Shown piece after piece: positions 1 to 60,469 of a stretch of DNA of 64,000 nt. Source of the stretch: Physcia stellaris (Eukaryota; Ascomycota; Lecanoromycetes; Caliciales; Physciaceae). How positions within the stretch are numbered: position 1 is the stretch's first letter; every line of letters begins with the position of its first letter. The position numbers and the translations under genes were made by a program. Location: assembly GCA_018902385.1 (NCBI GenBank), contig JABSSW010000055.1, positions 1 to 64,000 on the forward strand, written 5' to 3'. The notes beneath the pieces were generated by a model. That model was not told the DNA's origin. It did not search any database and saw only the letters and a list, made by a program, of their open reading frames with translations.

Positions 1-1815
1 TTTCGAAAATTTGCAAACGAAAATTGTGATTTTTCATGTTCGCAAACAAAATTTTTTGATTTTCGTTTGTTACACGCATATCGGCGTATTGTAATCAGAA
101 ATTAGACGATATTTTTGTCAAAAATTTTCGTACAAAATCAAATCGTTATTCATATTAAAAATCAAAACAATCAATAATTGTATAAAATTCATTTTTGTTT
201 CAATTAAATTTAATGAAATTAACGACGTCAACAATTTTATCATTTTTCAATTGCATTTTGTCAAAAAATATTTGTAATTTTAATTTCAACAAATCGACAA
301 TATGTTGAACAATGAAACAATAAAAAACATTCGAATTTGCAAATACAACGACGCGACGTTTTTTTTGCGTTCGCATCGAAACGTAATCACGTTTTCGACA
401 TACGTTTATTAACATTCAAATTGATTAAAAACATCAATTTGTTTTCGATTGTATTTTTGAAATGTACGAATTTTTTCACGAATTTCAAAGTTTCAAAATT
501 TCGACGTTTTATATTTGACATTTTCGAAATCGTGATTGCGATAAACAAAATTTGTTCATTTTCAATTATCAAATCGTTTTTTTGTCGATTTTAAACAATT
601 CATCGCGATTATCGTACAATTCATGCGACGACGATTTCAAACGTTTTTCGAATTTTTGTTTTTGTCACGATTTTTATCGTTTCGACGAAATCGTCGATTT
701 GACGAATCACTTTTGACACGATAAAATTTGAACAAATTGAAAACAAATGATTCGTTTGATTACAATTGTACATTTTTCGCGAAAACATTTATAACGTTTA
801 AATTTTTTTGTTGTTTATTGTTTTGAACGACAAAAATTTGTGTCGATTAATTCGTCGTTAAAATTGTTCGAAAAACACGAAAAACATATTTTTTTGTATT
901 GACATTTTCGTGTTTCGAAACATTCGTCATCATATTGTGCAAATTCATATTCGAATACATTTGATTTTGATTGAAAATGTAATTTCGAATATCGATTTTG
1001 AATTCGTCACGATATTTTTTTTTGATCGCAAATTCAATAACGTGTTCGCGAATGTTTTCGTATATCGACGTGAATTTGTTATTGTAATCGACGATTTTGT
1101 TGTATGCGTCAAATTGAATGATTTCGTTGTATATTTTGAAAAATTTTTGTTGTCAATCGTGCTCGTTTCAACGAACGAAAAAACATTTTTTGAATTCGAA
1201 TCATTTGTCATCAAATTTTTGCAAATGAACAAACAAAAAAATAAATCATTCGACAATTTTGTTTTCGAAATATTGTTCGATGACGATAAAAACGTTGATT
1301 TTGTTAATTAAATGTGAATTGAACACATGAAATTTTTCGTGTTTGAATAAAAAATTTTTGATTTCAACATGATTACGTTCACGTTTTTGAAAAATTGAAA
1401 AACGACGATCGATGATTTAATCATCGAAAATGATTTGCGTTTCAATTTGCGCGTCAAACAAAATAAAATCAAACAAATGATCGTCGTCGTTAAAATTAAC
1501 GATGTTCGCAAAAAATTGATTGTGATTTATGAATAAATTGTTTCGTGATGTACGTTTACGATCGCGACGAAATTGATCGTTTAATTGAACGACGATATTA
1601 ACGACGACATTATTTTCGACGACGACATTATTTTCGACAAAATCGACGTTTTTTTCGTTCGAATTTTCGACGAATTCGTCAACGATTTTATCGAATTGAT
1701 TGTCGAATTTTGTTGCAATGTTCGCAAAATTTGAAAAATCGAAAACAATCGTACGTTGTGAAAAATCATTTGAACGATCACGACGACGTTTTAAATTATC
1801 ATTTTGAATAAACAT
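1..1815 (-). mobile_element. Decayed retroelement fragment with Gag-like protein, partial
   Basis: Minus-strand reading from about 1815 leftwards gives a hydrophilic N-terminal stretch rich in Asn/Asp. Around 950-1150 there is a segment with the spacing of a retrotransposon Gag (an acidic-aromatic block followed by KKKYRDEFK-like residues). Further left lies a stretch that could be the Gag-protease junction. The fragment runs off the left edge of the window, so pol would lie outside. Decay is very heavy, with dozens of breaks. Seen: the pattern of residues. Inferred: family, probably Gypsy-like. An unrelated repeat cannot be ruled out. Confidence 0.35.
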
Positions 1816-2270
1816 GATGATTAATGAATAAAAAACTTTAAAAATTTTGAATTTTCAAATGAATATCAAATGCAACGAAAGCAATTTGAATTGACAAAAA
1901 ACAATGAACACAATCAAATACATTGTAAATGTAAAAAAAATGATATTATCAATGTAAAAATTCAAAATTAATAAAATTAATGTGAGAAATCGTTTGATTT
2001 TATATAATAAATTAATCGCAAAAAACGCATAATTGATTTTGACAAAATTCAAAATCAAAATTAAATTTTGAATTTTAAACGAATATATCGTTTCGATTGT
2101 CGAAATGTTTTCTGTCAAACAATTTGATCATTTACACGTATCAAAACAACGATATTAAAATTAATATTTTTTATTAAAAACAAATCATCGATCAATTAAT
2201 TAAATTTCAAAATTCGTCGCAATAAACAATATATAAAAAATTTGAAAACTAAATATACGATTTTTTTAAA
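1816..2270. other. AT-rich spacer, nothing recognised
   Basis: About 450 bases of CpY-depleted AT-rich DNA between the minus-strand Gag-like fragment and the plus-strand chromovirus. It could hold the 5' LTR of the former or the start of the latter, but no matching LTR copy is visible elsewhere in the window. Confidence 0.4.
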
Positions 2271-3972: not shown

Positions 3973-4130
3973 TGTTACGATAAATCTGCACATAGAATTG
4001 AAATCAAAATATTTGATCAGAAAAAACTAACGTCTTGACAATTTATTCATATTTCGCATTTTGTCTTTTAGATAAAAACAATCAAACATATTGTATTATT
4101 CATTCAACATCACGATTTATTTTGATAACA
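3973..4130 (+). repeat. Left LTR of element A
   Basis: Begins TGTTACGATAAAT and ends GATAACA; 158 bp. Direct copy at 18673-18823. It retains several CpT/ApG sites (for example CTGCACATAG and TTGATCAG), unlike flanking pol sequence. Confidence 0.85.
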
Positions 4131-4393
4131 TCATCGAATATACGATTACAACTTTCATGATTGTTTTTGAGAAGTTTTTCTAACAACGATCAACGTCGTT
4201 GAAGTCGTATCAACGTCGTTGAATCAAACATCAAATCGAAAAATATCATCAATTTCGTCGAGAAAATTTATTTATTATTGTATTAAAAAACACATCAACA
4301 TATTTAGTCATTTGACGTCAACAAATTTATCTATTTATTTGTTTATTTATTTTTCGATTTGTTTATCGATCGATCACGAATTCTTTTTTCAAA
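4131..4393 (+). other. Left part of element A interior
   Basis: Short stretch between A's left LTR and the target-site duplication of B. It should contain A's primer-binding site and 5' leader. No tRNA-complementary motif is obvious directly after the LTR. No gene recognised. Confidence 0.5.
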
Positions 4394-4398
4394 TCATG

Positions 4399-4717
4399 TG
4401 TAAAAAATAAAAATTCAGAATTTTCGAAAATGCGATTCGCACTTCGTCAAGCAATTCGATTATCGAAATTCGAATGATTTCGAAAAAATCAATTTCAATC
4501 ATTTTACAATTCGATCAACGATAAACTCAACAAATTCATATTGTCAATCGAAATCGATCGAATTCGTACGATTGAATAAATAAAATGTAAATAAAAAACA
4601 ATTGCAAAACGTAATTTGTTTTGTAACGATTAATAAATCAATATATTACATTTCAAGTTATACATTTCTGATGTCAATAATTCATTAAATTATATTATTT
4701 CTAATACGAATTTTACA
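4399..4717 (+). repeat. 5' LTR of Gypsy element B
   Basis: 319 bp, starts TGTAAAAAATAAAAATTC and ends GAATTTTACA. It matches 16699-17017 almost base for base. Confidence 0.92.
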
Positions 4718-4958
4718 TTTTAATCGTTATCATATTTCAGAATGATGTATTCGTGTATATTTAACAAAACACAATTTTGTTGTTTCGTATACATCATGTC
4801 GAATCTTGATAATGATTTTTTTTTTCAATTTGTCGAAAATGCTGATTTATTTTTTTGATTGATTTATTACAAACAACAAATCGAAAAAAAAATCACGAAA
4901 AAAAAATCAAATTTCAAATTCGAATTGTCGAACGTTCGAAATTTGCAATTTTATTTTA

Positions 4959-5173
4959 TGTGACGAGCGTGCATCGAATTCAACATTTGATCAATCATTA
5001 AAATTAACATTCTTATCTTATCACATCGAATGACAGAATCGGAATTCGTTTTGACGCATTCAGAAAATCAAATTTTTACATATGTTTTCGCAAATTTATT
5101 AGATATTTGCTTTTCATTTCGATATTCTCGTGTAATTATGTATTAATATCATATCAATGCATGACATTTCACA
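4959..5173 (+). repeat. 5' LTR of element C' (C-family LTR)
   Basis: Starts TGTGACGAGCG, ends CATTTCACA; 215 bp. Family members at 10786-10997, 22423-22640 and 59616-59833. This copy retains CT/AG sites. Confidence 0.88.
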
Positions 5174-8100
5174 TTATATCGAAATCATTTTAATTTCTTC
5201 AAGTTGTTCGAAATACGACAATTTATTCAATAAACAAAATTTCAAACAAACGCGAAAATTTAAAACGTCATCAATTAAATTTTAGACGTGCAACGAGAAC
5301 GACGTAATTTTGCAAAAACGTGAAATCGAAAATCTAAACGATTTGAATGAAAACAACGAAATAAAAATTTCATTCAGATCACTCTTCAGGAAACAGCGAT
5401 TTCGAGTGTGAATTTTCACGAAAAAAATCGTTTCGATACTCAGCGAAACGACGAGATAATTGTAAACTGTTATCGAAACGACGATTGTTTGATATTTTCG
5501 AACGTGATAAAATTCATTTAATCAACAAATCATGACGACGATTGAAATCATTTGTGACATCAAAAATCAATAAATCAGATTTAGAAAAGTTCAGAAAACA
5601 TCATATCAGAAATATTCGATAAGAAAAAATCGAATCAGAAATTTCGTTATTCGATCGAATTTTTTGAAAAATTCGTTCTTTTGATCGAATTCGAATCATT
5701 TATCTTTTTCGAAAATTCTTCAGAATCAAATTTACTTTATTAGCAATTGATCATTTTCTTCTAGTTATTCGATTGCAAAATTTGATATTTCAATCAAAAA
5801 ACTGTACGAAAATATTGATATCAAGTCAAGAAATTTTCATATTTCGATTCGACATTTCGTCAACATCGAAATTATTTTCTTTGCTCGAAAATCAATCGAA
5901 AAGTCTATTAAATCAACATTTATTTCAGTTTTTCTTTTTTTATTTCAATGATAACATCAATATTCGAATTGAAAAATCAATCAATTTTTTTACAGAATTT
6001 TCAGTATCGACAGTTTCATATCAGTATTTGAAATATTCTTGTTTTTGAGATATTTCAGAAATCACATTTGTTTGTCAGACAAATATTTTTTGATTTCGAC
6101 TTTTTCAACATCGATGATAAAATTGATAACATTTCGAATTCAAATTTCAAATCAATTTTTCAGATTTTTCATATTTTCGTTCAATATTTCGACAAGAATT
6201 CAATATTGAAATCATTCATCTTTTTCGAGAACATTGTTAAAACATATCTGTTTTTCTTATCGATCGATCAAATTTCTGATTTCAACGATAATTTCAATAT
6301 CAATTCTGAAAATTGTTCAAATTTTCATTCAACGCATTTTGATATTAAAATCATTTTTTAAATTCGAAATTTTTCGATTTCTTATTTATTTATTTAACAA
6401 ATCAACATTTGTTTTCTGTCTCGATGTTAAATTCAATATCAATTTTTCAAAATTTTTTTCGAATATCATTCATCAACATTCAGAATCAAGATCATTTTTT
6501 TTGTTTGAAAATATTCAAAAAACATTTATTTTTTTTATCAATCTTTTTTTTTTTAGTCTCAACGATGACGCTAAAACAACAAAATTTGAAAATTTCAATT
6601 TCAAATCGTTGTCAATGATGTCAATTAGATTACGAAACTTGAAAATTCATAATTTTCAATATTTTTCATGTGTTGTTCGAAATCGAAATTCATACGATTT
6701 CGTCTTGCGATTTCTCGAAGAGCAAACGAGCGAAATCGTCGAAATCATTCAATATTTGTTGCGTTTGTTTGCAAAAACAACAAAAATTGAACATCTTTTG
6801 AAAATCTGAAAACGATCAAAAAAAACTAAGACTAATGTTGTCAAAAATGCAAAACGAATCAAATCAAAAGTTTTTAAAATTCAAGAAATTGCAAAATCAA
6901 CATCGAAATTTCAAAATATCGATATTTTCGATTCAACGTTCACAGCGCGAAAATCGACGATTCAGTGAAATCGCGAATTTCTTGCAACATCTTCAACAAT
7001 TCAATATCTGTATCGAAAATCAGATTTGCTTATGTTGTTGTTCAAATTTGTTTTTGAAATTCTGTTTTCGATATCTGATACGATAAACAAAACATTTTGA
7101 AATCAGCATTTTTAAATGAATGAATTGAAATTTTGCGAGTCGAATTCGTCAACGTTTCGTTTGAAAAAAATTAATTAGTTGTTCGAAAATAATTTGCATG
7201 CGATGCGAAAAAAATTTCAATTTCAAAAACAAGTTTCAATCGTTGTACGCAATCAACATGCGAAAAAATCGATCGACAATTCGAATTTCATGATCAAACA
7301 ATCAAATCAACATGCGAAATCGTCGAAAAGTCAACATTTTTCTGTCTGATTCGATTCGTCTGCTTTGCAAAAAATCGTCGAATCGCAAAATAAAAATTCG
7401 TATCGAAATCTGAAATAGTTGTCGAAACGATTATCGCAAAAACGAATTCGATTTTCACGATTTTGATAAAAATTCAATAATATTTAAAATCAATGAAAAA
7501 TTCAATTCAATATTTTCATGAATTTCATTTTCAACGTTAAAGTCAAAAATCAAAAAAATTCTTGTTCGAAAATTTGCAACATTTAATCAATACGCGAATC
7601 TGCATCAATTTTCGAATCAATCATTTCATCAGAATGTTGTTTTTTCGTCTTTTACACTTGAATACATATTCGAATCGACAGAAATGTATTTATTCGACGT
7701 TTTTTTGATTCGTTGAACTGCATAAATTTCTATTGCAAATAAAGCAAATAGTTCGAAATTGATTTTCGAAAAAGTCATTAAATCGAAAATTTCGCATTTT
7801 AAATCTAATGCATCAAATATTGTATCAAAATTGATGAAAAACAATCAATTCAATGTTCATTTACTTCGTCGAAATTTCATCATTTTCTCAAACGCTCGAA
7901 TCAAAGCATCAAAATTGAATTCGTTATTCAAAAAAAAAAAAAAAAAGCTCGTTTCTCAAGATTTCGTCAGACAAATCAATTGCGAAAACGAAAAAAATTC
8001 AGTTGTCATTAACTCGTCTGTTTCGTCAACATCGAAATCGATCTTAAAAAAATTGTTTTATTTGTCGAATCGTTGTTATCTCAATCAAAAAGCATTATTT

Positions 8101-8300
8101 CGAATATTCTTTGTGTCGAAAAACATTACGTCATAAATTAAAACAACAATTCGTTCGTCGTAAAAATCAACGAAACAAAAAATTCAAAAACAAATCGAAT
8201 TGATCGAGCAAAAATCTCGAAAACGAAATTTGAAAATTTCTCGATCAATGCATCAATTTAATATGCGAAATCAAAAAACGTCATTCGTTCAAAAATAAAT
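5174..8300 (+). pseudogene. Decayed Ser-rich coding region of element C'
   Basis: Several overlapping plus-strand frames (for example 5773-6048, 6068-6361, 6234-6809, 6835-7086, 7759-8136) rich in Ser, Phe, Asn and Ile, with a Cys-rich stretch near 7010-7080. I recognise no enzyme. Position and composition fit the N-terminal, Ser/Pro-rich part of the zinc-finger cargo protein or an additional cargo frame. CpT and ApG are kept more often here than in the pol genes of B, C1 or E. Fossil, many breaks. Confidence 0.4.
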
Positions 8301-8399
8301 TGTTTATTTCATTTGCGAAATTTCAAATTCATATTCGAGTTTGCGATAACGTTCAGAACAATCATTTTATTGAAATTTTCAAATTTTCGTTTCTACATT

Positions 8400-9400
8400 C
8401 GAAACTAAGCTAAAATCAACGAAAAAATCAACAACATGTCGACGATGCAATCAGATTTTCGATTTTAATAACAAGTTTCACGAACATATACGCGAACATC
8501 ATGTTCGAAAATTTGTCAAAAATTTGAATTTTCGAATTTTCACATCGAAATTCACATACAAAATCATTGAAAAATCAACAAACATTCGTTCGTTTGTTTC
8601 GTTTATTTTACAAAAACTTTTTATTTTTTTCGCAACATCACGAAATCAAATATTTTCAACGAAAATTGTTTCGCGATTTGTTTCATCAAATGATTCGAAT
8701 TTTTCGATTGCGACACACAAAATCACATCAAAATTCGTGAAAATTGCATCAATCAATGATTTTTTTATTTCGTTCGCAACATTTTTATCAATGTTTCGAA
8801 AATCGATTTCGAAATTTCATTTTTACAATCGACGACTTGTTAACATGTTTCGTGAAATTTTAAATCATTTGATTTGCGACAACATCATAATCAACGATTT
8901 TTTCGCAAAATTTTGATTTTCGTCAACTCGATCGATCATGTTCAATTTTTTCGAAATTTCATTAAATTATCGAAAATCTGTTCGAGATGTTCGTTGAAAA
9001 ATCAAAAAAAAAAAAATTCATTTCAAAATCAAAACAACGTTTTTTTCGAGAATTTTCGTCAAATCAGTCGCGAATTACGATCTATTTCAAATTTGAATTC
9101 AATCAGAAATCGTCAATTAGTCAAAGTTCAAAAAACTCAAAATCGAAAAGTTTGAATCAACATATGTTCGCGAAATTCATTCGCACTGTTTTCAACAAAA
9201 GTCTTTTTGAGAAATCGATCGATTTATCATACAAATTGTCAAATGTCTTTTGTCGTTTGAAGTTTTCGAATTCGAATAAGATTGCAAAATTTTTTTTCAT
9301 TTCTATATTTTTTTTTTTCGACTTTTCTTTTTGTTTTCGCATTCGTTTCGATCATTTTCGCTGCAAAAATGAATTGTATTAACGTTATCAACAAGATCAT
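8400..9400 (+). pseudogene. Zinc-finger cargo gene of element C', decayed
   Basis: Around 8436-8510 the plus strand encodes a recognisable C2H2 finger (TCRRC...F.FNN.FHEHIR..H), very close to the intact finger of the island protein (CRRCKSKFDSNIKLHEHIR). It is followed by an ATSR...IVSR...S.FSIATHK stretch (8630-8760), matching the island's ATPRKPISWAEIASRP and LPIATPK region. An IDDL motif near 8830 matches YLTVDDLHRMF. The order is the same as in the island protein. Fossil with several breaks. The homology is by eye but rests on three collinear blocks. Confidence 0.68.
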
Positions 9401-9429
9401 TTCGATCATTGATCGTGTCGATATTGAAT

Positions 9430-10785
9430 TTGTCGTTTCGAAACGAAATTGAAAAAAAAAACGAAAATAAATAAAATTTTCGAATATTCAATCACGAAAC
9501 ATTTTCAAAAAGATTTAAAAAAATTTTATTGAATGAATCGTAACATCGATTATCGCATGCGTTTAAATATCGATGCGTTAATCGTTATTACGCGAATTTT
9601 GTTAATACAATGAAATTGTTTGTTTCGTTTATAATCGATAATCATTTTAACGCGTTGTTTGTTTACTAATGATCGTCGAAATTACTCGTAAAAAATTGTA
9701 TGAAATGATCATTTTTCAGAAAATTTATTACATTCATGTTTTGTTAAATGCAAAAATCAATTTTCGCATATGCGTAAATATCGATATTAAAGCGCGTTGT
9801 TGCGAAAATTCTATCAACATAACGAAATTGTTCGTTTCATCGAATATTTCGATTTGATGTTGCAAGAAAAACGTTTACATTAATGTTTTCATTTATTCAA
9901 AAGCTCGAATTTTCGATTTTACATTCTAAACTATTTATTAAATTTTGAAAATCGCAAATTTTCGATCGTTTTGTTTATTTTATCATTTACGTTATTTTGC
10001 ATCTTCGAAAATTGATTTAAATCGTTTTTTCTTTATCATTTTCAATGATTTCGATTTCAGATATTTCGATTTTAAAAACTTGATTTAAAATTTCAAATCA
10101 AATACAAGTATCTTTATTTACATCGAAAATCTGATAGAAGCAAATTTTTATAAAAATTCAGAAATTCAAAACGTTGAAAAATTTTTTGTTTCGATCAATC
10201 AGTTGCTTTACGATTTTTGAATTTCAGATATTTTCAAATGATTTATCATATCATTTACTCGCAAATATCATGATTCATGTTTTCGTAATCGAATTTCGAA
10301 TTGAAATTCGAAAACGTTTTCATCTTTTTTATTTTGTATTTGTATTAATCATTTTGAACAAAATGCATGTTCGAAATTTACAAAAAAAAAAACGTCTTTT
10401 CATCATACGAAATGACGCGATATTTTTGCATATTTTAATTGTTTTAATAATTTTTCACATTTTCGATTCAAACGCAAATTTTTTGAAACGTTTTCATGAA
10501 AAAAAAACGATCGTTTCATCATATTATTTTCGAGATTTTTTGACATTCAACGATTTTCGCAAATACAAAATCGTTTAAATTCAAAAAAATCATTTTCGTC
10601 GTTTTCGTCGTTTTTCGTTTTCGTCAATTTTTCGTCAATTTCATTTCGAATTTTGATTGTCGCATTCATTATGAACTGTAACATTCAAGAACAAGTCATC
10701 AAAATCACGTATTTTGTCGATCGATTTAAAAAAAAAAAACAATAAGTTAATCGTTTCGAAACGAAATTGAAAAAACGAAAAATAA
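9430..10785 (+). other. Chromovirus-type 3' region and polypurine tract of C'
   Basis: The segment 9540-9890 is homologous to C1 22000-22260 and C2 59180-59420. The final stretch GTTTCGAAACGAAATTG plus an A-rich purine tract (about 10750-10785) immediately precedes the 3' LTR and matches C1 22387-22422 and C2 59580-59615. A second copy of the same purine-tract motif sits internally at about 9437-9475, at the junction with the zinc-finger cargo. A frame at 10174-10578 is not recognised. Confidence 0.65.
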
Positions 10786-10997
10786 TGTGACGAACGTGCA
10801 TCGAATTCAACATTGAATCATTAAATTAACATTTTTTATTTTATCATATCGAATGACAGAATCGAAATTCGTCTTGACGCATTCAGAAGATCAAATTTTC
10901 TACATATGTTTTGTCAAATTTATTAGATATTTGATTTCATTTCGATATTCTCGTGTAATTATGTATTAGTATCATATCAATGCATTGACATTTCACA
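10786..10997 (+). repeat. 3' LTR of element C'
   Basis: Starts TGTGACGAACGTGC and ends CATTTCACA; 212 bp, followed by the TSD TTTTA. It differs from the 5' LTR at several positions plus small indels, so the insertion is not recent. Confidence 0.88.
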
Positions 10998-11338
10998 TTT
11001 TATTTATTTTTGCTTTTGATTCTGTTTGAAAATTTTTTGTCATGAAAATTATCGAATTTCAAACATCGAATCAATCGAAAAAAAAAAATTACAAAAAATG
11101 AAAAAATATTGCAAACAAATGAAAAATCAATTCACGCAAAACAACGTGAATCGCATGATTCAATTTTCGAATCTAATCAAAATCGCATATGTTGAAATTT
11201 ATTTTAAATCAAATAACAATGCGAACAAATTTTAAAACGCAAAAATCGATTTTCATTCAAACAAACAATACATTTGAAACGAATTCAAAATTTTTTGAAA
11301 AACGACATTGAACGAACAATCACGTTACAACAAAATTT

Positions 11339-36445: not shown

Positions 36446-36450
36446 GCGAT

Positions 36451-47151: not shown

Positions 47152-47156
47152 TTATG

Positions 47157-47950
47157 AACAATTTTGAATTTTTCAAAAATGTGTTGATTTTGCGTATGAT
47201 AATTTGATTAAAACGTTCAACGCATTTGTTTATTTGAAAATTTTCAATAATAAAAAATTTCATTATAATGTTGCGTTTTTTTCGATAAATCGTAAAAATA
47301 TTTTCAAAAAATTTATTATCGTTGTCGATTCGTAAACGAATGCAACGAAAATAATCGTGTTCAATAATATTCAAAAAATTTTGAATAAAATCAAAATTTC
47401 GAAAAATGTTTTGTCGTATAAAATGTTTACGTGAAACATTTGAATAAAATCGTTAATTCAAATCATTATTCAATAAACATCATTTTGTTTTTTTGAAAAA
47501 AAATTTATCAAATTATCGTGAATGAAATCGTCAACATGACGTTTTGATTTGATAAATTTTCGATGAAATTTCGTTTTATCATTGATTTTTTCGCAAAAAA
47601 TGCACGAATTCGATGATAATAATTTGAAAAAATCAATATCATGTTGATGAATCATTTGAATAATATTTTGAATATTTAAATAATTCAATCGTTCGTGTTA
47701 CATTTTCAACGTGTTTTGATTGACAATTAAACAAATCACGAATTTGTCGAATTGAAAAACGTAAAAATTTTGTTATTTCAAAACATGAATGTTTTTGTTG
47801 TTCATTGCGAAATCGTTGAATATAATAAATAAAAAACAATCGTTTTGTTGAAATTAAAAAAAAATAAATGCAATTTGAAACGTAAAACATTTGATGAATA
47901 AATAAATAAATAACGATTTTCGTTGAAAATATCGCAAAAAATTGCACAAT
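47157..47950 (-). pseudogene. Element F integrase (Copia), N-terminal and core part
   Basis: The minus strand has R-I-D-N-D-N-K-F-F-E-N-I (the R-x-D-N-G-x-E-F block) followed by FTIYRKKRNI and ENFQINKCVERFNQIIIRK (the PQ-N-G-x-x-E-R-x-N block). Upstream, 47470-47688 fits the Gag-pre-integrase end (C-x-x-C and a KSKRHVDDF block). Fossil. Confidence 0.8.
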
Positions 47951-48282
47951 ATCGTAATCGAAAAATTTAATTTTTCTTTATATTTTCAATTGAAATATCG
48001 AAAATAACAACAAAATTGATAAAAAATCAACAATTATTAATTATATAAAAAAAATTCGTATCGAACAATCAAACAATGTTGAAATTCAAAATTTTAATGA
48101 TAACAAAAATGAAAAAAAAAAATTTGACGACAATGAATTTGTCAAAATTGATTGATTTCGAAAAACAACAATTTCGACGAAAATCGAATGCGTAATTATC
48201 GTTTCGTTTACAAATTTTCAAAAATTTTCGTCGAATTTCGTTTTATTTTTGTTTTGTTTTGTTTTTTTTTTTTTTTTTTTTG

Positions 48283-48319
48283 TTTGATTTTGATTTTGAT
48301 TTTGATTTTGATTTTGATT
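48283..48319. repeat. Simple repeat (TTTGAT)n
   Basis: Six copies of TTTGAT following a T/G-rich run. It creates a spurious LILILI frame on the plus strand. Confidence 0.85.
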
Positions 48320-50849
48320 ATCGTTGCGTTATTAATTTTTGCGTTTACGTCGTTTTTTTTTGTTGTTTTTTCGAATTTGTTTGACAACGACAAAATGAAA
48401 ATGTTTGATGATACATTCGATAATGTCGTGATAAAATTTTTGACAATAATCGTATCATTTAATTTTTTGAATGATAATTTTGATGTGTTCGAAAATGACG
48501 TTTTGTTGAAACGATTTGATGAAATTTGAAACAAAATCGATAATCAAAAAAACAAAATCAATATCGTTGATAATCGCAATTTCAAAAAAATTGATACATT
48601 GAATTTCATATGAATGAATAACGTTCGAAAAAACGTGTTTGAAATTATTTTTTTGATTATTGTCGAAAAATTCATGTTTCGAAATTCAACGATCAATGAA
48701 AAAACGAACGAATTTTGAAAAATTCGCAAAATATTTGTAAATAAATCAATTTTCATTCATTTTTGAATTAAATGAATAAATGACGAATTCGTTAATAATG
48801 TTTCGAAATTTGAATTTATATTTATTGATGTCAATGCAAAATTTTTTTGAAAAATTCAAATTTGTTATAAATAATTATCAACGCATTGAATTTTTTGAAT
48901 TTGCAAATTTTGATGATTTTTTTTCAAACGTTTATGACGACATTCGCATTTTTGATATCATAATACAAATTATCGTTCACAATTGTACGTAAAACAATAT
49001 AACACAATTCATTATTTTTATCGTCAATTGAAAATCGTCGTTGAATATATTTTCATAAACGAATTCATTTGAAAACATTTTTCATTTTTCGATTTCATTT
49101 GAAATATTTTTGAAATTCATTGATTTTGATGATAATTTTAAAAAAAAAACGAAAACGAAAACGATAAAAAAAACGTTTTCGACGTCGAATTGAATTGTTG
49201 AATTAAACATGATAATTTTGAAAATTTAAAAAAAATTCGTGCGATTAAACGAAAAAAATCAAAAAAATTCGATGAATTCGATATTTGAAAATTAAAAAAT
49301 GAATTTATAAATAAAAATTCGACGAATTTGAAAAAAAAATTGATATTCGTAATTTTCAATGTTTTTTTCGTTTGATTCGCGAAAATAATCAATTATAATT
49401 TGTGCAATTTCGTGTACAATATTTGAAAATTTTGTTTCGAAATGTTTTACGTATAAATAGCGAATGATTTTTATTTTGTTGATAAAATTGATTGAAAAAA
49501 TTGATTAATAAACACATTTCAATTGAATTGTTGAAAATTTTCGAAATTAAATTTAAATCGTTTTTAAATGATTGCAAAAAAAACGTAAATATAAATTGTT
49601 AAAAATAAACGTGAATTTCAAATGTCGAAATAATTTTGTAACGTTTTCGTTTTTTGTCAATTTTTCGAAAAGAAATGTTTGATTATATGCATTTGTTTCA
49701 ATGTTGTTTGAAAATTCGATTTTTGTTGCGACAATAATTTCGATTTTCACGATAATTGAAAATTCAATTTTTGATGATACGACAATGATTTCAATTTTCG
49801 TTTTAATATTGTCAATCGTTGTTGAATTTAAATTTGTTTCAAATGTTTGATTTATTGAAATGTCAATTATTTTTTTGATTGAATTTTGAAAAAAACAAAA
49901 AATTGAATTTCGTTTAATAATGAATGATTGAATGATTTCAATTTGATTCGACTTTGCATTAATTGCAACATTGTTCAATACGACACGTTTTTAATTTTCG
50001 AATTTGTTTTTTTTTAATCAATTTATTTGTTTTTTTGACAAATCGAATGATTGAAAAATTATCGAATAAATCAAAATTCGTGATATTGAAATATGCAATT
50101 GTGTTAAAATTTTGATCAAAATCATTTGTCGTTTTAATTCAATTTTGTTTTTGAAATCGTTCAACAATTGATCGATTATTGATTTTGATAAATCAATACG
50201 AAATTATTGTGATCGCAATTGTGATTCGTTTGATTAAAAATAATAAAAAAATTGATTGAATTCGAATTTCGATTGTTCGAAATCAATTATTCGAATTTTT
50301 GTGATGTTGATTTTTGCAATACGATTTCAAATGAATTGAAAAAATTGAAATTGAAAAATTTTTGCATGTTTTTAACGATTCGACATTCGTATTTTGACGA
50401 AATTAAACGCGTTTCAAATTTCGTTAATCAATTGCGATATTAATCGTTTCACATGATTACATGATTGATACATATCGTTTGAATGAATTTATTAATGATT
50501 TGTTTGTTTGCAATTTCATTAATCAATGCGTTTTTTAACGAAAACGACAAATCGCGAATAAAAAATAAACTTAATCGTTTGTTCAATTTTTTCGACATTT
50601 TTGAAATTTGTTTTTGTTCAATTGTGTCGAACGAATTTCGATGACATTTTTGAAATTTGTTTTTTTGTTCAAAATTCATGTTTTTTGAAATTGTATTTTT
50701 TTTCATTGCAATGCAATGAATTTTTGATTTTGAAAAATTTTTAAAAAAGAAATTTCGTAAAAATGTATTGAATTTTGACATAAAAACAATAATAACGTTC
50801 GTTCGTTTAAACGATTAATTTAATACAAAAATTTACAAATAAATTATTC

Positions 50850-50869
50850 GTTTTTTCGAATTCATAATT
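50850..50869 (-). promoter_or_regulatory. Decayed primer-binding site of Copia F
   Basis: On the minus strand the bases after the 5' LTR read AATTATGAATTCG. This agrees with a half-tRNA-Met site (GGTTATGAG-type) at the positions the CpY process leaves alone. It resembles the island's site and supports a Copia identity. Confidence 0.5.
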
Positions 50870-51008
50870 TGTCAAAAATAAAAAATAAAACGCATTGTAT
50901 TGTTAAAAATATTAAAATTTGAATTCGTTATATACATTTTGAAACGTCAAAATCGTCTAAATCACGTGACAAAAATATAAAATTAATTTCGAAATTTGAA
51001 TTTTGACA
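50870..51008 (-). repeat. 5' LTR of Copia element F
   Basis: 139 bp, plus-strand TGTCAAAAATAAA to AATTTTGACA; followed by ATGAC, the probable TSD. Confidence 0.87.
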
Positions 51009-52119
51009 ATGACAATTTTGATATCGTTTCGTTTATCGTCAATGATTTCGATTTCGATAATTCGTTCATTTATACGAATTATTCGAATTTTGATTTCGTT
51101 GCATTTGAAAAAAAATTTCAAATTTCGCAATATCATAACAAACATATCAATTTTCAAACGCAAAATATGAAAAAAAAACGATGTTTCGTTGTAATGATAA
51201 AAACATTCGTCATCGAATTCATTTTTCAATTCAAAATTTACGAAAATATTGAAATTGTGTTTGAAATGCACGTTTTCACGAAATTTATCGACGCAAATTT
51301 CGTTGATTTGTTGAACGTCGATATTGATTATCGCGAAAATAATTCGTTCGTCGAAATATTGATTGATAAAAATGCGAAATTTCAAATCAAAATAAATGAT
51401 ATTAATGAATTTTTGTTGCGAATTCGTTTTCGATAAATATTCATGATGTCACGATGCGAAATTTTTATTTTCGTCGATTTTTATCGCATCGTCGATATTC
51501 AAAACATTTTTAACGAAAACAACGATTTTTTGACGATTTTTTTTTGTGAACATTGAATTTCGAAAACGCATGTTAATGATAAAAAATAAAATATTTATAA
51601 TATTTCAAAAAAAAAGTTTTTGCAAACACATATTGACGATAATATTTCGAAATTTTTTAAAAACAACAAAAAAACATTGTTTGAAATTTTCGCAAAAACA
51701 TACAATTTTTTTTTCGAAAAAAACAATTTCGTCAACATCGCAAAAATAAAAAAAAATACGATTAACGATCATGAAATTTCATTTTCGTTGCATAAAAATT
51801 TCGTTTCAAAAAATCAATTTGACGATTTTAATAAATTCGACACGATCGATATTTTTTTGATCGAACAAATGTTTTCATTTTTCGAATTCAAAAAAATTTT
51901 GAATTTGAAATAAACAATAATATCATTTTTCAAAAACGTGATTGCAATGTTTGAAAAAATTATCGCAAAAACAATAACATTTTTCGATCGTAATTTGATC
52001 ATGACGATGTTTTGAACGAAATTTTTTTTCGTGTTTTCAAAATCGTCAAAAAAAATGATTTTGATTTCACGAATTTTTATTTTTTTAACAATTTCAACGA
52101 TTATATTAATCGTATGCAA
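51009..52119 (-). pseudogene. Helitron helicase, N-terminal and middle part
   Basis: The frame 51814-52119 carries IKIIFFDDFENTKKNFVQNIVM, the position of Walker A (G-G-x-G-T-G-K-T/S in intact relatives; here several Gly are lost), followed by an AIIFSNIAITFL block. The frame running from about 51385 down to the element F boundary carries IINIDVQQINEI, then YNETSFFFHILRLKIDMFVMILRNL (the L.L...M.V...RN motif of Pif1/Helitron helicases). ATPase function cannot survive these losses. Confidence 0.72.
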
Positions 52120-53690
52120 TTAATTCGTATTAAATTTGTTTCAATTCGCGACGACGAAAATTAAAAAATCAATCAACGTTATTTTTCGCGAATCAAACGA
52201 TTTTTAATTTGAACATATTGATCGAAATCAATAAAAAATTTGAACAAATTATAATGAAAAAAATTTGAAATTTCGTCGTCAACAATTTTATCGAACAAAT
52301 TTGACAACAAAAACAATATCAATTGTTTTTTTTGATCGTGCAACGCATTCAAATCGATTTCAATGAAATTTTTCAACGTGAATTTTTGCAATAAAAAATA
52401 ATCGCGAATTATTATATTTTTGCAATTTGAAAAAAATTTGCGATGAAATTAATGAAAAACGAAAATAATGCGATCGCAAAAAATAAAATTAAAAAAAAAA
52501 ACAAAAAACATTTGAAAATGTGCACGTGTTATTTCATTTTCGATCAATAAAAAATTTAAAAAATTCAACATTATTATACAAAATTTTTGTATATTCGAAA
52601 TTATTTCGAACATTTCAAAATTCGAAAAAAAATCGAAATTGATTTATATTTTTTTGTGTTTCGTTTACAATTTCAAAAATTTCGCAAAATCACATTCGAT
52701 CAAAATCGTTACGAATAATTTTTTCAACATCGTCGCAATATCGAATTCGATAATTTCGATTATAATTGCATTTTATTCGTCGTTATCGTCAATTAATTCG
52801 AATTCAACGCAAATTTGTTTGTAATTCAAAAATTGAAAAACGATTTTTTCAACAAACTTTTTTTCAATTTGCACATTCACGATTTTTAAATCGTCAAAAA
52901 ATATGCATTTTTTTTTGTTGACGAATAACAAACGCAAATAAAAAACATCGTTTGATTTGAAATTTATAAAATACATTCGATTTACGCATTTGTTCATTTT
53001 TCGCACGATTCAAATTTTTTTGATTTTATTTCATACGAAAAATTCGAAAATATTTTGATAAAAATGTTTTCGTGAATTCACAACAATATCACGATTTTTT
53101 TTGCGAATAACAAAAAAAAAATTCATTATTGCGTTCGATTTCGTGAATTATGCGATTGAATTCGAAATATTCGATTAATTGAATCGTGCGAAAATTTTCG
53201 TTTTCAATCAATTGATTTGAAATTTTTTTATCGTTGAAATTAATGACAATTCGATTGCGATTTTTCAAATGCAATTGAAATCGAATGATCGCGAATTTAA
53301 TTTCGTCGAAAAAAAAATCGAATATACGTTAAACGATTTCGCAAAATTCTATTCAACGCGTGTCGTGAAAAATTTTGATTTCGTCAATAAATTTTTCGTT
53401 GTTTTGTCGATTCGTACGAAATTCGTTAATTCGACGAATAATAATAATGTTGAAAAATACGTCGAAATAATCGTTTTTTTTGAAAATATATTTGTACAAA
53501 TATTTTACGAATTTCGCATTGATGTAAATTTCAACGTTAATATAAATTTCATATTTTTGCAACAATCAAAAATTGTAAAAAATCATTTATTTGATGTTTC
53601 AATATTTTCTTTTTACAAATTCGCACGAAAAACGACGATATCGCGATAAATTTGAATGATAACACAAATTCGTCATCATTAATTTTTTTT
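52120..53690 (-). pseudogene. Helitron Rep-helicase linker region
   Basis: The frame 52773-53006 (RMYFINFKSNDVFYLRLLFVNKK, then FDDLKIVN) and the frame 53089-53274 (FNDKKI, then LIEYFEFNR) match the conserved region between Rep and helicase in Helitron proteins (R-x-Y-x-V-x-P..GE.FYLRLLL, L-T-E-Y-F). Broken by stops and shifts; the plus-strand frames here (53269-53649) are shadows. Confidence 0.68.
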
Positions 53691-54494
53691 TGAAAAATCA
53701 TTTGATGTATTTATTTTCGAAATTATGACAAAACGTTTTTTCGATTTTTTTGTAATTTTTGTGAATTATTTGTTCAACAATCAATTCGTAAAAAATTTTG
53801 CGTATCGCGTTGAATTCAAATATTTTTTTGAAAAATATGATTGCATGAATCGCGTCGTCAATGTTGTTTTTATCGCATTCATTTCGAAAATTTGTAATGA
53901 AAAAAATATGAACATGCGACAAATTTTTTTTCTGAAATTCGATAACGTAAATGTGCGCGTTTATCATTTTCATGACATAACGTTCGATAAAATCGCGCAA
54001 AAATTTTTTGAATTTCAATTGAAATATTTTAATTATCAAGTCGAAACGATTGACGATATTAACGTTCGAAAAAAATTCGTTCGAATTTTTTTCAATGTGA
54101 ATTGCAAATAAAAATGATGAAAAAATAAATTTATTAAATTTTCGAATCAAAACGAAAACGTTTTGTTTTTGATTTTCATGTATCGAAAAAATTTCGTATA
54201 ATTTGACGACAATATCGTCATTTTTTGATCAATATTATTGAATTCATAATTTTGACTCAATCGATTCATGAAATTTCGATAAAAATCAATTCGCAAAAAC
54301 AATTGATTAAAACGAACGAAATTGAAATTATTGAATTTCACGCAAACAAACGCATTCATCAAAAAATATTGAAACAATCGTTTCGAATGCAATACACGAT
54401 TGAATTTTTTTGACGATTTTGTATATATATAACATAAAAAAAACGTGATTTTGACACCAATACATTGACGAAAACAAAAAAACGAAATTTTCAT
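53691..54494 (-). pseudogene. Helitron Rep (Helitron_like_N, HUH) region
   Basis: The frame 54147-54494 reads SKRLFQYFLMNAFVCVKFNN followed by FVRFNQLFLRIDFYRNFM, typical of Helitron_like_N (L-x-Q-x-x-x-V-D). The frame 53698-54150 reads FIERYVMKMINAHIYVIEFQ followed by KKNLSHVHIFFI; the HVH pair is the HUH metal-binding motif in its usual E-x-Q-x-R-G-x-P-H-x-H setting. Enough is left for a firm family call. Confidence 0.82.
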
Positions 54495-54749
54495 ATTAAT
54501 ACATTGACGAAAATAAAAAAACGAAATTTTTATATTAATACATTGATTTCGCGCAACAAAAAAACAATAAATTTATTGTATTTTTCATGCATCAATCGAT
54601 CGATTCGTGAAACGTATGCAAAATTTACATCGTGATGAAAATTTCAACAACGCGTTGAATCGTGTCAAAAATACGTTGTTAAAATTCAAAACACGAATAA
54701 CAATTTATCGTTATTGAAAATTTCACGATTTGACGTGTGAAAAATTTCA

Positions 54750-56150
54750 TTAATAAAAAAATAATTTTCGCATTTTTTTTTTTTCGATCAAATATGCAAA
54801 AAACGAAACATTTGACAAAACATACGTAAAAAAAAAGTTAATTGAAATAAAAATCGTATTTCGATACGAAAAATGCAAAAAACGACGTATTTGAATGATA
54901 TACGAATAAAATTTTTTTGAATTATTCGTTTCGATTTTTTTCAATTCGAATATCGTTGTCGTCGTTTTTTTCGTTTTGATTACGTGCAAATTTTTCATTT
55001 TCGTTATCGTCGAATTTCAAATCGTGTTTTTGAATAAATCGAAACGTTGTATCGAAAAAAGTTTTGCGAACACGTAAATCACGATTATTTTCGTGATCGA
55101 AAAAAATAATAATAAATATTTAATTTTGTTTTTCGCAAAAAAATCAAAATAAAATATCGAAACGTTATGTAACAAAAATGTCAATAAAACATTCGAATGA
55201 AATTATCGTCGTAAATTTGCATCACGATATTTTTTTCGATTAATTTATTCGAATTAAACATTTCGAACACGTTCAAAACAATAACGATTTTTTCGAAAAT
55301 GAATTTGTTGTGCGTTTTTTTTCACATTCGTTTAAAATCATGTTGTTTCAAAACGATTTTGATTTCAAAATCGTCATCACAATTTTTGAACGATTGAATT
55401 TATAAATTGTATTTGATCATCAAATTTTGTAATTCGTGAAATTTTTTCAAACAATTGTTCATCGTGAATCAAACGTTTCAATAAAATTTTCTGCGAAAAA
55501 TCGAACGAATATATTTGACAAAAACGACGACGATCATTTAAATTAACAAAAAAAACATTCAACATGTGATGAATCGATTTCATGATGCGAAAAATAATTC
55601 AAACGTTGTGTAATTCATCAATTTTCGCGTTTTTATTGATAAACGACAAAACGTTGTTGAAAATAATGATCATTTTTTGAAATTTTTTGTATCGTTTGTT
55701 CAATCGTTTGCGTGAATTGAAATCGTTTGTAAATCGCATTTTATACAAAAATGATTTAAATATTTGAAATCAACGTCACGTTGTAAAATTGCGTTTTTTT
55801 CGAAATCGTCGAACATTTTCGTTACAACGTCAAAATTTGTTTCAAAAATTATCATGTTCGATGAAATTTTGTCGTTGACGCAACAATGTCAATATTTATC
55901 GTCGATGAATTTGCGATAACATTTTTCGAAATATTAATAAACATCGCAAAAAAAACACACGTTGTTGTCGTTTTTGTCATGCAATTTCGACAATACATGT
56001 TTGTCAAATATCACGTTTTTTTGCGAACGATCATATAATCAAAATTCAAATTTTTGTCGTCACGTCGAATTTTGAAATCAATTTTTCGAATTCGAACGCG
56101 TTGTTTGACGATTTTTTTCGCGTATGTTTTTTTATTTTTTTTTATTAAAC
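54750..56150 (-). pseudogene. Helitron N-terminal region
   Basis: Upstream of Rep. At about 55890-55990 the minus strand reads CFFCDVY..FEKCYRKFIDDKY.HCC, the Cys spacing of the C-x-x-C-G-A...C-C block found near the N-terminus of fungal Helitron proteins. The 55377-55583 frame lies in the following segment. Broken by several stops and shifts. Confidence 0.55.
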
Positions 56151-57117
56151 AAACGTGAATTTTTTTTTGTCATCATCGTGATTCGAAACGTGTTCAAATT
56201 TTCGATTTGATTCGTGATCGACGAAATTTGCGTATGATCGTATGAAAAAAAAATCGTCGAAATCGTAATTATCGTTTTTTTCTTGAAAAAAAAATTGAAA
56301 AAAAAAAAGCACGATTCGCGAAACGCGCAAATCGTCGTATTTTTGACGAGAACGTATAACAACAAATTCAAAAAAAATAAAATTGTAAAAAACTCTGAAT
56401 GACAATGATGCAAACGTGACGTTTTTTCGATATTCGATTTTTTTATCGCGTTTTTTGAAAAACACATTGTTAACAATATTGATAACATTATTAAAAAATC
56501 GCTTAAACGTTGTTTTCGTTGAATTTGCAAAATGAAAAAACAAAATAATGATTTCATACGAATTCACAAACATCGCGAATTGCTGTTGACGATTTTGATT
56601 GTTGATTCGATTGATAACATTGTTGAATCGATTTTCAACAACAAAAATAAAACGATCGAAAAAAATCATTTTGACAACAAATAAACGATTGAAATGTAAA
56701 TGTAAATTGAAAAAAAATGAAACGAAAATGCAAAATCAAAACACGAAAAAAAAAATTTGACAAACAAACGTTTGATGAAATCAACAAACAAAAAAAATAA
56801 ACAACGTGATTATTTCACAATCACATGATCAAAACGCGTCATTTCAACGACGTTGAAAAACGCATAACGAATTTCAAAATTTCAATCAACAAAGTATAAA
56901 AAGATTTGTCATGATTGTTGACGATACAACGAAAAAAACAATTGCAAAAATTGAAACATATTTGAAATAATCTTGACGTATGTCTCGATTAAAAACGTGA
57001 ATTAAATATTGATTAAATTTATCGACTTTAAAAAATACGAACGCAAAATTGATCAAAATTTTTCTCGATCGATCATTCTCGTCAAACGAATATATTGAAT
57101 TTTTTTAAAAAAAATAT
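56151..57117 (-). other. Helitron 5' end region
   Basis: Contains a 174-codon minus-strand frame (56145-56669) and an overlapping 141-codon frame without recognisable domains; these may be N-terminal Helitron coding. The last 150 bases before the C2 junction keep more CT/AG than the rest. No TC terminus could be fixed. Confidence 0.4.
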
Positions 57118-59833
57118 TTTATATTGAAAATTCGAATTTGAAAATATCGATAAATTCGTTGAAATTTACATCGATTACAAAAATTTGAAAATTTTCATGA
57201 CAAACAAAAAAATTATTTTTATTAAATACGTTAAATAAAAAACTTGATCGATTATAATATTAAAATTTAATATCAATTCGAAATCAAAAACGTTAAAACA
57301 AACGTTTTAATTCGTATGTTTGATTTTCGTTTTGTCAAAAACGACGAACGAAAATTTTATAAAAAACAAATTTTGTTGTTATTTTCACGATTGCAATTGT
57401 GTTTGATCAACGTTTAAAATGATTTATACGAACGAATCATGCAAATTAATCGAAAAAACGACGATTGCATTAATTATCGTTAAATTTTGATCGATAAACA
57501 AATTATTAACGATAAAATAAATTTACAAAATTGTTTCGATCGAAACGAAATTTTTTCAAAAACGAAAATTTATGAATATCAAATCGATTGAATTTTATAA
57601 TCGAAATAATTCGCGATATTTACAATTAATTTTTTTGTATTCATTCGAACATAAATCGAATTGAAAAATTTATTAAACGTTATTATTATTGATTTAATAT
57701 GAAATTATTTATTAAACGTTACATTCGTAATTGTTACAAATATCAACGATCGAAAATTTCATATAACGATCGTTATGAATTATTAATATCGTTGTCAATT
57801 TTCAATCAACAATAAATCGATATTTCAATGAATTTTATTATTAATTTATTCGATTTCAAAAATAACAACGTTATTTGTATCATTATCAATCGTTTGATTC
57901 AATAACGTTATTACGTTTTTGTGTAATCGATGACGATGATTTAACAATCAAAATTTGCGTCAAAATATTGTTACATTACGTATTTCGCATTTATGATGTG
58001 TTTTTTTCATCGTTTCAAATCGAAATAATCAATTTGTAAATCGTGTTTGAATTTTTTTGTAAACGTTTAAAAATCAAATGTAAATTGTTCACAACGTTTC
58101 AATTCGAAATTGATAATTAAATCGAACGAACGAATTAAAACATCGAAATACGATTACGTCAATATTGTAATTATCGATAAAACGATTAAATTGATTCAAT
58201 CGATATCATAAAATTCGTTAACAATAACGATGTATCGACGATCACAAAATTCATTTCGTTTTTTATTAACAAAAATTATTATTTTCGAATAATTTTTGTT
58301 TCAAATTTGAATGATTACGAAACAATTAAAAAACGTTTGTTAATCAAAAAAAAAAAATTCATAATCGAAAAAATAAATCGTATTATCGAATACGTCAAAA
58401 TTAATGTTGCGAATGTTAAACGAAAAATGATTATTCGAATCAACAAAATTCGTTTTTTAATTAATTTCGAAATAAAAAATTATATGTGATTAAATCGTCA
58501 TCACATAAAAACAATTCGTTTATTCGACAAATTGAATAACAAAAAATTTAATTCGTATAAAAATATTAAAAAACGAAATAATGTTTACGAATTGAAATTG
58601 TTTGACGATATACATATTTATTCAATTTTTCATTCGTAATTGTTAAAAAAAATTCAAAAATTTATTGAAAAAACAACAAAACGATTTTTTTGAATTCGTT
58701 ATTACAAATAAAATGTTCGAATGAAAATTAAACGACATATTACAATTTCGATATTATTATTATCGTTTACAATATCGTTGTAAATAATCAAATTAAAATT
58801 TTCACGATCGTATTTGATATTATGTCGACGATATTGAATTTCAAAATATTTAAAATATTATGAATGTTTTTTACGAAATCAATTTAAAAACAACAAATTT
58901 TGTTTTACGAAATAATTAAACAATAATTTTCAAAATATTATCATCGATTAAAAAACATAATATTGACGTTAAATTCGTCAAACATTTATTTTCGAATTGA
59001 TTTTGATAATTTACAATTTTAACAATTTTTATTGTTTACAATCAAAGTTTAAAACGTTTGAAAAATTGAATCGTGTTAAAAACATTTTCAAAAATTGTCG
59101 TTTGATTTTATTGAACGATAAAAAATAAATGCATATAAACAAACACGTTGTTTAAAATTAAAAAACATACGAATTTGTCAATCAAATTTTCAACAAAATT
59201 TTCAAATATTTATTGATAATCGACGAAATTATTTGTAAAATTTGTTCAAAATTAATTCTTTTCTAAAAAGTTTATCGTATATTTATTTTACAAAATAAAA
59301 TGTACGTATCAAAAAAACGTACGAAATTAAATATCGATGCGTTAATCGTTGTTATATTAATTTTATCAATATTATCAAATTGTTTGTTTCATGATATGAT
59401 CGATTTGATATTTTGAAATTTTTTAACGAATTCATTTCGCGAACGAAATTTATTTTGCAAAATTTATTTTGCAAAATTTCGTATTTGTTTCGTTATTTCA
59501 ACGATTATTTTATTGAACGTTATTCAATAAAATATTTAAAACGCGTCGATTGTTTATTGTTACAAAAAAAAATCTATTAATCATTTCGAAACGAAACAAA
59601 AAAAACGAAAAATAATATAACGAACAAATATTGAATTCAATATTTGACAAAATTAATATCGTGTCAATATTGTTATTTTATCATATCGAATGTTAAAATC
59701 GAAATTCGTTTTGACGCATTCGAAAAATTAAATTTTTTATATATGTTTTTGCAAATTTTCATTTATTTGTTTTTTATTTCAAAATTTTCGTGTAATTATG
59801 TATTAATATTATATCAATGCATAATATTTCACG
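57118..59833 (+). mobile_element. Chromovirus C2, right piece with 3' LTR
   Basis: Aligns with C1 19690-22640 throughout: the rest of RNase H (57120-57400), integrase (57650-58490; the frame 58307-58489 reads MNDYETIKKRLLIKKKKF), a chromodomain-like end (about 58730-58870), the 3' region and the LTR. More decayed than C1. It continues the piece at 23140-23540. Fossil, dozens of breaks. Confidence 0.78.
59616..59833 (+). repeat. 3' LTR of chromovirus C2
   Basis: 218-bp C-family LTR directly after the purine tract at about 59590-59615; the most decayed of the four family members in the window. Confidence 0.78.
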
Positions 59834-60469
59834 ATTTTGACAACAAAATTTTCATATAAAAACGTATATTTCGTCGTAATATCTTTTTATTTCGTTTTGA
59901 TCGTTGACGATGTATTGAAATTTTCGAAATACAACGAAAAATTGTTCGTTGATTTGAAATAAATGATAATAAATATAAAAACGTCGATATCGAAAAAAAT
60001 AATTTTGATTATTGAACAAATAATTGTTTTTGAACGAACAATTATTCAAATTGCGATTGTTTTTTTTTTGTTTTTTTTGTTTTTTGGTTTTCGTAATATT
60101 GTTTGACGTGCTTTTGCAATGATAAACAGATCGAAATTCAAAATAAATTGCATGATAAATGTGAAATGCTTGAATAATGTTTCGGACGTGACTTTGTGAA
60201 CGTGTTTTGAATAATGTAATTGAATTTTCGACAACAATTTCGCGAACAGAATCATTTTTTCAACTCATAACTATTGCGATAATGAATCGATTTCTGTTAT
60301 TGTTACAACATTCGATTGCGCTTAGTTTGCTCTACAACTTTGGCTAGATAAGTAGAAATCATATATGGTTGTTGATTGGTGTGCAAGCTGCAAAGCATTG
60401 CATGGGCGCAACAATTCGATTTTGATGTTTTTGATGTGAATTTTGAAAATTTTGTGCTTTTCGATTTGA
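59834..60469. other. Boundary between AT-rich block and gene-bearing DNA
   Basis: Base composition and CT/AG frequency recover gradually from about 60060, and normal coding composition starts at about 60480. Minus-strand frames at 59852-60049 and 60046-60255 have no recognisable domain. No feature supported. Confidence 0.5.

Follow-up and report, generated by a model that had tools for sequence, protein, structure and literature searches.

Near-complete loss of CpC and CpT from a transposon-rich block of Physcia stellaris DNA, consistent with a RIP-like process that prefers cytosines before pyrimidines

The repeat-induced point mutation (RIP) of Pezizomycotina, linked to RID/DIM-2, changes C to T on both strands of transposons only, spares host genes and leaves AT-rich, gene-poor blocks. 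CpA is the dominant target in most accounts (PMC2621366, PMC5555474, PMC4014442), and a 2025 survey of 1,239 fungi gives CpA preference as a trait that RIP-like defences have in common (PMC12543289). For Magnaporthe oryzae and Botrytis T4, Amselem and colleagues describe CpT as the prevailing signature; they connect CpA/CpT signatures with RID and suggest a motif in RID for recognition of CpT, and their main text does not mention CpC (PMC4352252). With RIPCAL, CpT exceeded CpA in Neurospora Tad1 and in Stagonospora short ribosomal DNA repeats (PMC2621366), and van Wyk 2021 reports CpT to TpT as dominant in control large retrotransposon derivative (LARD) alignments (PMC7882544). Here, we describe a 64,000-nucleotide stretch of Physcia stellaris (contig JABSSW010000055.1, positions 1 to 64,000; hereafter the window), most of which is an AT-rich block that has lost nearly all of its CpC and CpT on both strands and has kept nearly all of its CpG and most of its CpA.

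The block is interrupted by one element of normal composition and is followed by two host-side genes:

1-43944: decayed block A, an AT-rich transposon graveyard with CC/GG only at 83, 5041, 5389, 25135 and 43723
43945-47151, minus strand: spared island, a long terminal repeat (LTR) retroelement of normal composition, with LTRs at 43945-44143 and 46953-47151 (199 bp, 94% identical)
47152-60085: decayed block B, with the signature of block A; CC/GG occurs once, at 54457, and then from 60086 onward
60470-61339, minus strand: piece of an AMP-binding (adenylate-forming enzyme) gene (PF00501, 1.8e-41), host-side control
62039-63440, plus strand: intradiol (hydroxyquinol/catechol-type) dioxygenase gene, host-side control, with a 48-nt GT...AG intron at 63122-63169 recognized by eye

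We compared a decayed set of 56 kb (1-43700 plus 47700-60000, with the island left out) with 5.6 kb of control DNA from the same window (61000-64000 plus 44200-46800). The GC content is 23.9% in the decayed set and 50.7% in the control. At control density, the decayed set would hold about 6,868 CpC/GpG and about 7,337 CpT/ApG sites; 5 and 508 are left. CpG is present 3,225 times where 3,249 are expected, CpA/TpG 6,444 times where 7,667 are expected (84%), and TpA has risen to 3,623 from an expected 2,539. Relative to control, the densities are 0.0007 for CC (95% interval 0.0001-0.0016), 0.069 for CT (0.048-0.093), 0.84 for CA (0.81-0.86), 0.99 for CG (0.95-1.03) and 1.42 for TA (1.33-1.51), the intervals coming from a block bootstrap over 55 one-kb blocks that does not carry the sampling error of the 5.6-kb control. 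With Y for pyrimidine and R for purine, the CpY/CpR ratio is 0.04 in decayed DNA and 0.95-1.07 in control. The most enriched tetramers in decayed DNA are AAAA, AAAT, AATT and TTAA.

The same contrast is seen in observed/expected ratios. For 1-60000 with the island included, these are 0.19 for CC, 0.17 for CT, 0.17 for AG and 0.26 for GG, against 1.22 for CA, 1.23 for TG and 3.55 for CG. For all seven dinucleotides the ratios lie between 0.84 and 1.14 in host-side DNA (60500-64000) and between 0.83 and 1.15 in the island. CC is absent from 26 of the 30 two-kb blocks of 1-60000; the others are 24001-26000 and 54001-56000, with one each, and the island blocks 44001-46000 (144) and 46001-48000 (37). 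Decay stops at the ends of the island, whose last CC/GG is at 47146, and restarts directly beyond it. It fades at about 60.0-60.5 kb, and the two host-side genes are without deficit. The stretch 60001-60500 is a transition zone (31% GC, 11 CC/GG and 27 CT/AG), which may reflect either mutation leaking beyond the repeats or ordinary AT-rich intergenic DNA. The surviving sites in the decayed set are shared equally between the strands (258 CT and 250 AG), and a runs test found no strand tracts among them (z = -0.44).

A preliminary description of this DNA, made from its letters, had proposed that surviving C stands nearly always before A or G and surviving G nearly always after C or T, that both strands are hit, and that 13381-13560 holds no CpT or CpC. 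All three proposals are borne out by the counts, and in 13381-13560 CC, CT, AG and GG are all zero. It had also named two outcomes that would speak against such a pattern, namely CpA as low as CpT and a CpY deficit in the host genes, and neither was found. The depletion is certainly real, and it is stronger than first reported.

The base 3' of the cytosine decides, because CpCpR keeps its second C: the trinucleotide counts show CCA turned into TCA and CCG into TCG. TCG stands at 31.6 per kb, 1.6 times the control value of 19.9, where 31.5 are predicted (19.9 old plus 11.6 from CCG); TCA stands at 30.0 per kb, 1.9 times control, where 34.7 are predicted. Once the products are added back (CCT to TCT, GCT to ACT), residual CT amounts to about 7.6% of the starting density after a 5' T and 6.2% after a 5' purine, and these similar values leave no clear 5' preference visible. 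On the 3' side of the surviving CT, CTG and CTA are slightly in excess over TTG and TTA.

We then simulated the decay by mutating the control DNA on both strands under thirteen contexts, scoring each by its root-mean-square error (RMSE) over the 16 dinucleotides. A model that changes only CpY to TpY, run to completion and with no tuned rate, came second of the thirteen (RMSE 0.0074). It predicts a GC content of 0.253, against 0.239 observed, and its largest miss is TA (0.045 predicted, 0.065 found). Since this model reproduces the GC content, the AT-richness of the block can be put down essentially to one process plus a smaller loss of CpA. The best fit was given by a graded model with CC:CT:CA:CG = 1:0.3:0.017:0 (RMSE 0.0030), a fit that is not independent because we chose the rates manually, knowing the counts. 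The eleven other contexts gave RMSE values of 0.0216 to 0.0643. The forward model, used in place of an outgroup, suggests that the direction of change was C to T, and the context counts, copy pairs (see below), survivors and simulation all agree with C:G to T:A transitions affecting both strands of the repeats.

Two explanations that place the cause outside any RIP-like system can be weighed against these results. CC and CT are dipyrimidines, and among the eleven non-CpY contexts ultraviolet (UV)-type dipyrimidine damage fitted best (RMSE 0.0216). However, UV damage should have removed TpC too, and it predicts CG at 0.021 where 0.058 is found; the survival of TCA and TCG refutes it, and we give it practically no weight. 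A DNA cytosine deaminase with a 3'-pyrimidine preference, unrelated to RID and acting on transposon DNA, would require no assumption beyond a change of C to T before a pyrimidine. We consider it improbable: to our knowledge, the known deaminase families read the 5' neighbor, whereas 5' contexts fit badly here (RMSE 0.041 for TpC and 0.057 for the 3' C of CpC), and the survivors lack strand tracts. An APOBEC-type 5'-neighbor rule does not describe the data, as CpCpA keeps its second C and residual CT hardly differs between a 5' T and a 5' purine (7.6% versus 6.2%). RID/DIM-2-type methyltransferases read the base 3' of the cytosine, while APOBEC/AID-type deaminases read the 5' side, so the dependence on the 3' base favors a C5-methyltransferase over a deaminase.

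The RIP indices in common use do not register this decay. Across 112 windows of 500 bp, TpA/ApT averages 0.457, lower than in control (0.69-0.76), the substrate index averages 1.40 and the composite index -0.94. No window of the 112 has a composite index above 0 or reaches the product index (TpA/ApT) threshold, and 6 pass on the substrate index alone. The blindness of standard indices had been foreseen in the preliminary description, as had the departure from both CpA-type RIP and the TpCpG variant, now visible in CA and CG at 0.84 and 0.99 of control and TCG at 1.6 times control; its suggestion of a cytosine mutation with 3'-pyrimidine preference, or of an unusual relative of RIP, accounts best for the context counts and the forward simulation. 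Ordinary CpA-type RIP, AT drift or a sequencing artefact would be a scarcely credible account of the block. An AT-rich transposon block beside normal genes is the usual RIP landscape, and the few windows that pass the substrate index could be read in the same way, but CpA and CpG remain at 84% and 99% of control, and the product and composite indices fail in every window. In the simulations the classic CpA model (RMSE 0.064) and a model that mutates any C (0.031) do poorly, and an artefact would not halt at an LTR end nor spare genes.

Sister copies within the window provide a comparison that is independent of the control DNA. Among 21 internal repeat pairs, 12 were classified (all of those at least 89.9% identical, together with five older pairs), and 9 older or shorter pairs were left out. 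Six young pairs are decayed: the LTRs of a Gypsy element (below), 16691/4391, 10785/4958, 32943/50864, 18673/3973 and 24991/32600, the last at 89.9%; the LTR pair of the island, which is not decayed, was set aside. In these pairs (about 90% identity and above), C/T differences counted on both strands fall on CT at 31 of 49 positions, CA at 13 of 162, CG at 6 of 136 and CC at 1 of 1, the ancestral base of each pair not being fixed. The CT and CA rates differ strongly (Fisher 1e-14). The Gypsy LTR pair differs by 18 transitions and 1 transversion.

The order of the losses can be read best from one part of block A:

4001-11100: less saturated stretch, with 2 CC/GG left, CT and AG at 0.21-0.46 of expected (two-kb blocks) and a probable LTR pair at 4958-5179 and 10785-11003

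Of 505 residual CT/AG sites counted, 237 lie at 4-11 kb, not far from one half, and as CC/GG is down to 2 there while CT and AG persist, this stretch shows the rate order CpC > CpT most clearly. Loss of CpY does not need loss of CpA: in the third of blocks lowest in TpA, the TpA share (0.275) is near that of control (0.24-0.25), though CT/AG has largely gone (10.3 per kb, compared with about 131 in control). CpG drops slightly as the thirds grow richer in TpA, from 60.7 per kb in the poorest to 55.6 in the richest. We also considered whether CpA loss merely follows CT loss and rejected this, there being no significant correlation (rho -0.16, p 0.25).

The AT-rich block is a transposon graveyard, and the decay itself provides a way to read it. 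The internal repeats and LTR pairs are in keeping with this identity. Under the standard code, the decayed DNA has no stop-to-stop frame of 220 codons. When TGA is read as Trp, it has 23 frames of at least 220 codons and up to 448, and the four longest (448, 411, 386 and 375 codons) exceed anything in 20 Markov simulations (at most 341). We scanned 20 of the 23 for Pfam families (E up to 1 or E up to 0.01): two lie above Pfam cut-offs, two belong to transposon families below cut-off, one of them a second H2C2 frame, and the other 16 gave nothing convincing. The identified remains are the following:

36449-43796, minus strand: decayed Ty3/Gypsy element, with LTRs at 36449-36840 and 43404-43796 (94.4% identical)
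38515-39858, minus strand: frame of 448 codons with integrase H2C2, Tf2-1 SH3 and chromodomain, open only with TGA as Trp (10 TGA, 0 TAA, 0 TAG, 0 TGG)
34668-35477, minus strand: Copia-type reverse transcriptase fragment (RVT_2, 27.1 bits, below the 31.6 cut-off), open with TGA as Trp
50960-52084, minus strand: Pif1-like helicase remnant (39.0 bits, cut-off 25.9), open with TGA as Trp
19688-21997, plus strand: old repeat copy, 80.3% identical to 57121-59426
57121-59426, plus strand: old repeat copy, paired with 19688-21997

The Gypsy integrase frame matches the Ty3 structure 7q5b (E 3e-21), and no relatives of it were found in a viral contig collection. The Pif1-like remnant may be of Helitron origin. 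In the three transposon frames all stops are TGA (10, 6 and 9), CAA is kept (16, 9 and 15), and TGG and CAG are both at zero; the frames were chosen as open except for TGA, so the lack of TAA and TAG is a product of that choice. TGA stops with CAA kept and TGG gone are what CpY decay predicts, turning TGG to TGA and sparing CAA and CGA. In the Ty3 and HP1 alignments, 5 of 9 TGA codons fall on a Trp position; this count, like the lengths of the four longest frames, does not depend on how the frames were chosen. LTR-like copies at 22370-22647 and 59564-59838 are related to 10735-11004 (78-80%), which suggests that this element family had an earlier wave. The window holds no tRNA genes and no Rfam families at gathering score.

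The spared island is an LTR retroelement and not host DNA, although part of it serves as control. It is flanked by a 5-bp target duplication, TTATG, at 43940-43944 and 47152-47156. Its single open reading frame (504 aa, 45318-46832) is proline/serine-rich, carries a C2H2-like motif recognized by eye and presumably resembles the gag-like frames of Pezizomycotina. It has no Pfam match, the island contains no recognized polymerase, and no relatives of the frame were found in viral and genome contig collections; the element is probably non-autonomous. Just within the left LTR, at 44220-44298, lies a 17-bp tandem repeat, CCCCAGCGATGTGGCTC, in 4.6 copies. Judged by transversions (3 of 197 LTR sites against 1 of 391, Fisher p = 0.11), the island is no younger than the decayed Gypsy element, so escape through sub-threshold repeat status is at least as likely as escape through newness. 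Its self-repeats are only 199 bp long. On the host side, the adenylate-forming enzyme gene (60470-62000, minus strand) has an in-frame TAG near 61478, pieces in different frames and a C-terminal end that peters out at the border of the AT-rich block; it seems to be broken, unless introns went unrecognized. The dioxygenase with its short intron and the adenylate-forming enzyme, taken with the chromodomain Gypsy and Pif1 elements, point to a eukaryotic host, most likely a filamentous ascomycete.

The island also bears on decay without a homology search, in which CpC and CpT in heterochromatin would be methylated, in a MIP-like or plant-like manner (MIP, methylation induced premeiotically), and slowly lost to deamination. 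The whole block is saturated on both strands, as such decay would have it, and the variation of CpA loss among blocks, independent of CT loss, indicates that other mutation had time to act. On the other hand, the island is normal to its very ends inside the block with LTRs 6% apart (the transversion comparison above being only suggestive), the excess of transitions over transversions in the Gypsy LTRs (18:1) suggests bursts, and CpG, the usual methylation site, is intact. We therefore regard slow methylation decay as unlikely.

Given the observed composition, context, two-strandedness, saturation, transposon content, sparing and CpT-centered differences between sister copies, we favor, as the probable though by no means assured explanation, a RIP-like process that changes C to T on both strands before a pyrimidine, in the order CpC > CpT >> CpA > CpG and with no visible 5' dependence. 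Transposons would be recognized by homology, as in RIP, the catalyst would be a RID/DIM-2-type cytosine-C5 methyltransferase whose preference for the 3' base has changed, and the activity may have extended over several rounds. With a RID motif already proposed for CpT recognition (PMC4352252), it is plausible that RID came to favor a 3' pyrimidine.

Several points weigh against this explanation. The CpA preference that defines Neurospora-type RIP, with its TpA product, is absent here (none of 112 windows with a positive composite index; CA 0.84 and TA 1.42 of control). CpC is the least favored RIP context in Neurospora, so that the preference here would be nearly inverted. CpA/TpG has been partly lost too, standing about 16% below control, and the control itself is small (5.6 kb), with nearly half of it (2.6 kb) from a retroelement. 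The case for homology dependence is weak, as it comes from the one spared element. The LTR differences of that element (CC 3 of 21, CT 1 of 30, CA 1 of 32 and CG 1 of 12) give no clear signal either way. The LTR pair at 5.0/10.8 kb shows more transversions (10) than transitions (8). Between the copies of the five older pairs (75-81%), 276 CA, 171 CG and 32 CT positions differ; CT is mostly gone there, with just 2 CT positions in common, and the differences may predate the decay, so the older pairs do not speak for CpY.

More tentatively, and as a possibility in which we place somewhat less belief, the block may represent a second target class of fungal genome-defence mutation: a homology-directed mutator whose catalytic subunit reads C before a pyrimidine and nearly avoids CpA and CpG, and which keeps CAA, makes its stops mainly at Trp codons and is missed by TpA/ApT surveys. 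RIP has so far been defined and surveyed mainly through CpA, and a near-saturating CpC/CpT version would show that the choice of target can switch. If so, recognition of the 3' base could be tested by comparing the RID/DIM-2 proteins of CpA and CpY species, and surveys based on TpA/ApT or composite indices undercount genome defence. The AT-rich top tetramers found here could be taken for CpA-type RIP in k-mer screens, whereas reading TGA as Trp, together with the CpY/CpR ratio, is a practical way to find such regions and the transposons buried in them.

In the open-licence literature on mutation contexts, a search beyond whose reach lay most subscription papers and Clutterbuck 2011, reportedly the main context survey of ascomycetes, we found no CpA-sparing CpC/CpT RIP. 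A CpC-first, CpA-sparing specificity is thus unreported within the literature searched, and its novelty is provisional. CpC mutation is not unheard of, since in Rhizoctonia solani AG8, which is described as CpG-biased, CpC is the closest-spaced single-nucleotide polymorphism type in Table 2 (214 bp, against 370 for CpG, not normalized; PMC4014442). In Monilinia, CpC to TpT double changes are described beside classical CpA (PMC8959702). Blastomyces, which has AT-rich isochores, has GC-poor tracts of 29.6-31% GC, and CpA is absent from the main text describing them (PMC4595289).

Among the described systems, the TpCpG/CpG mutation of Basidiomycota and of CpG-type ascomycetes (Coccidioides, Tuber) likewise involves repeat-linked C to T decay, but here neither target is lost (CG 0.99 of control, TCG 31.6 against 19.9 per kb). 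MIP in Ascobolus targets repeats through a RID-like methyltransferase, Masc1, but it methylates, with a marked CpG preference (PMC4165359), whereas here there is mutation and CpG is intact. The CpA+CpT RIP of Magnaporthe, Botrytis, Sclerotinia and Anisogramma shares CpT as a target with this locus, although all four genera also target CpA; in Anisogramma anomala, CpA and CpT are hit and TpA/ApT is 1.14 (PMC10998396), in contrast to 0.457 here. With the RIP of Pezizomycotina at large, the locus shares the change of C to T on both strands, the restriction to transposons, the sparing of host genes and the AT-rich, gene-poor landscape. It differs in that RIP prefers CpA, whereas this locus keeps most of its CpA, has CpC as the main target and shows a TpA/ApT below that of the control.

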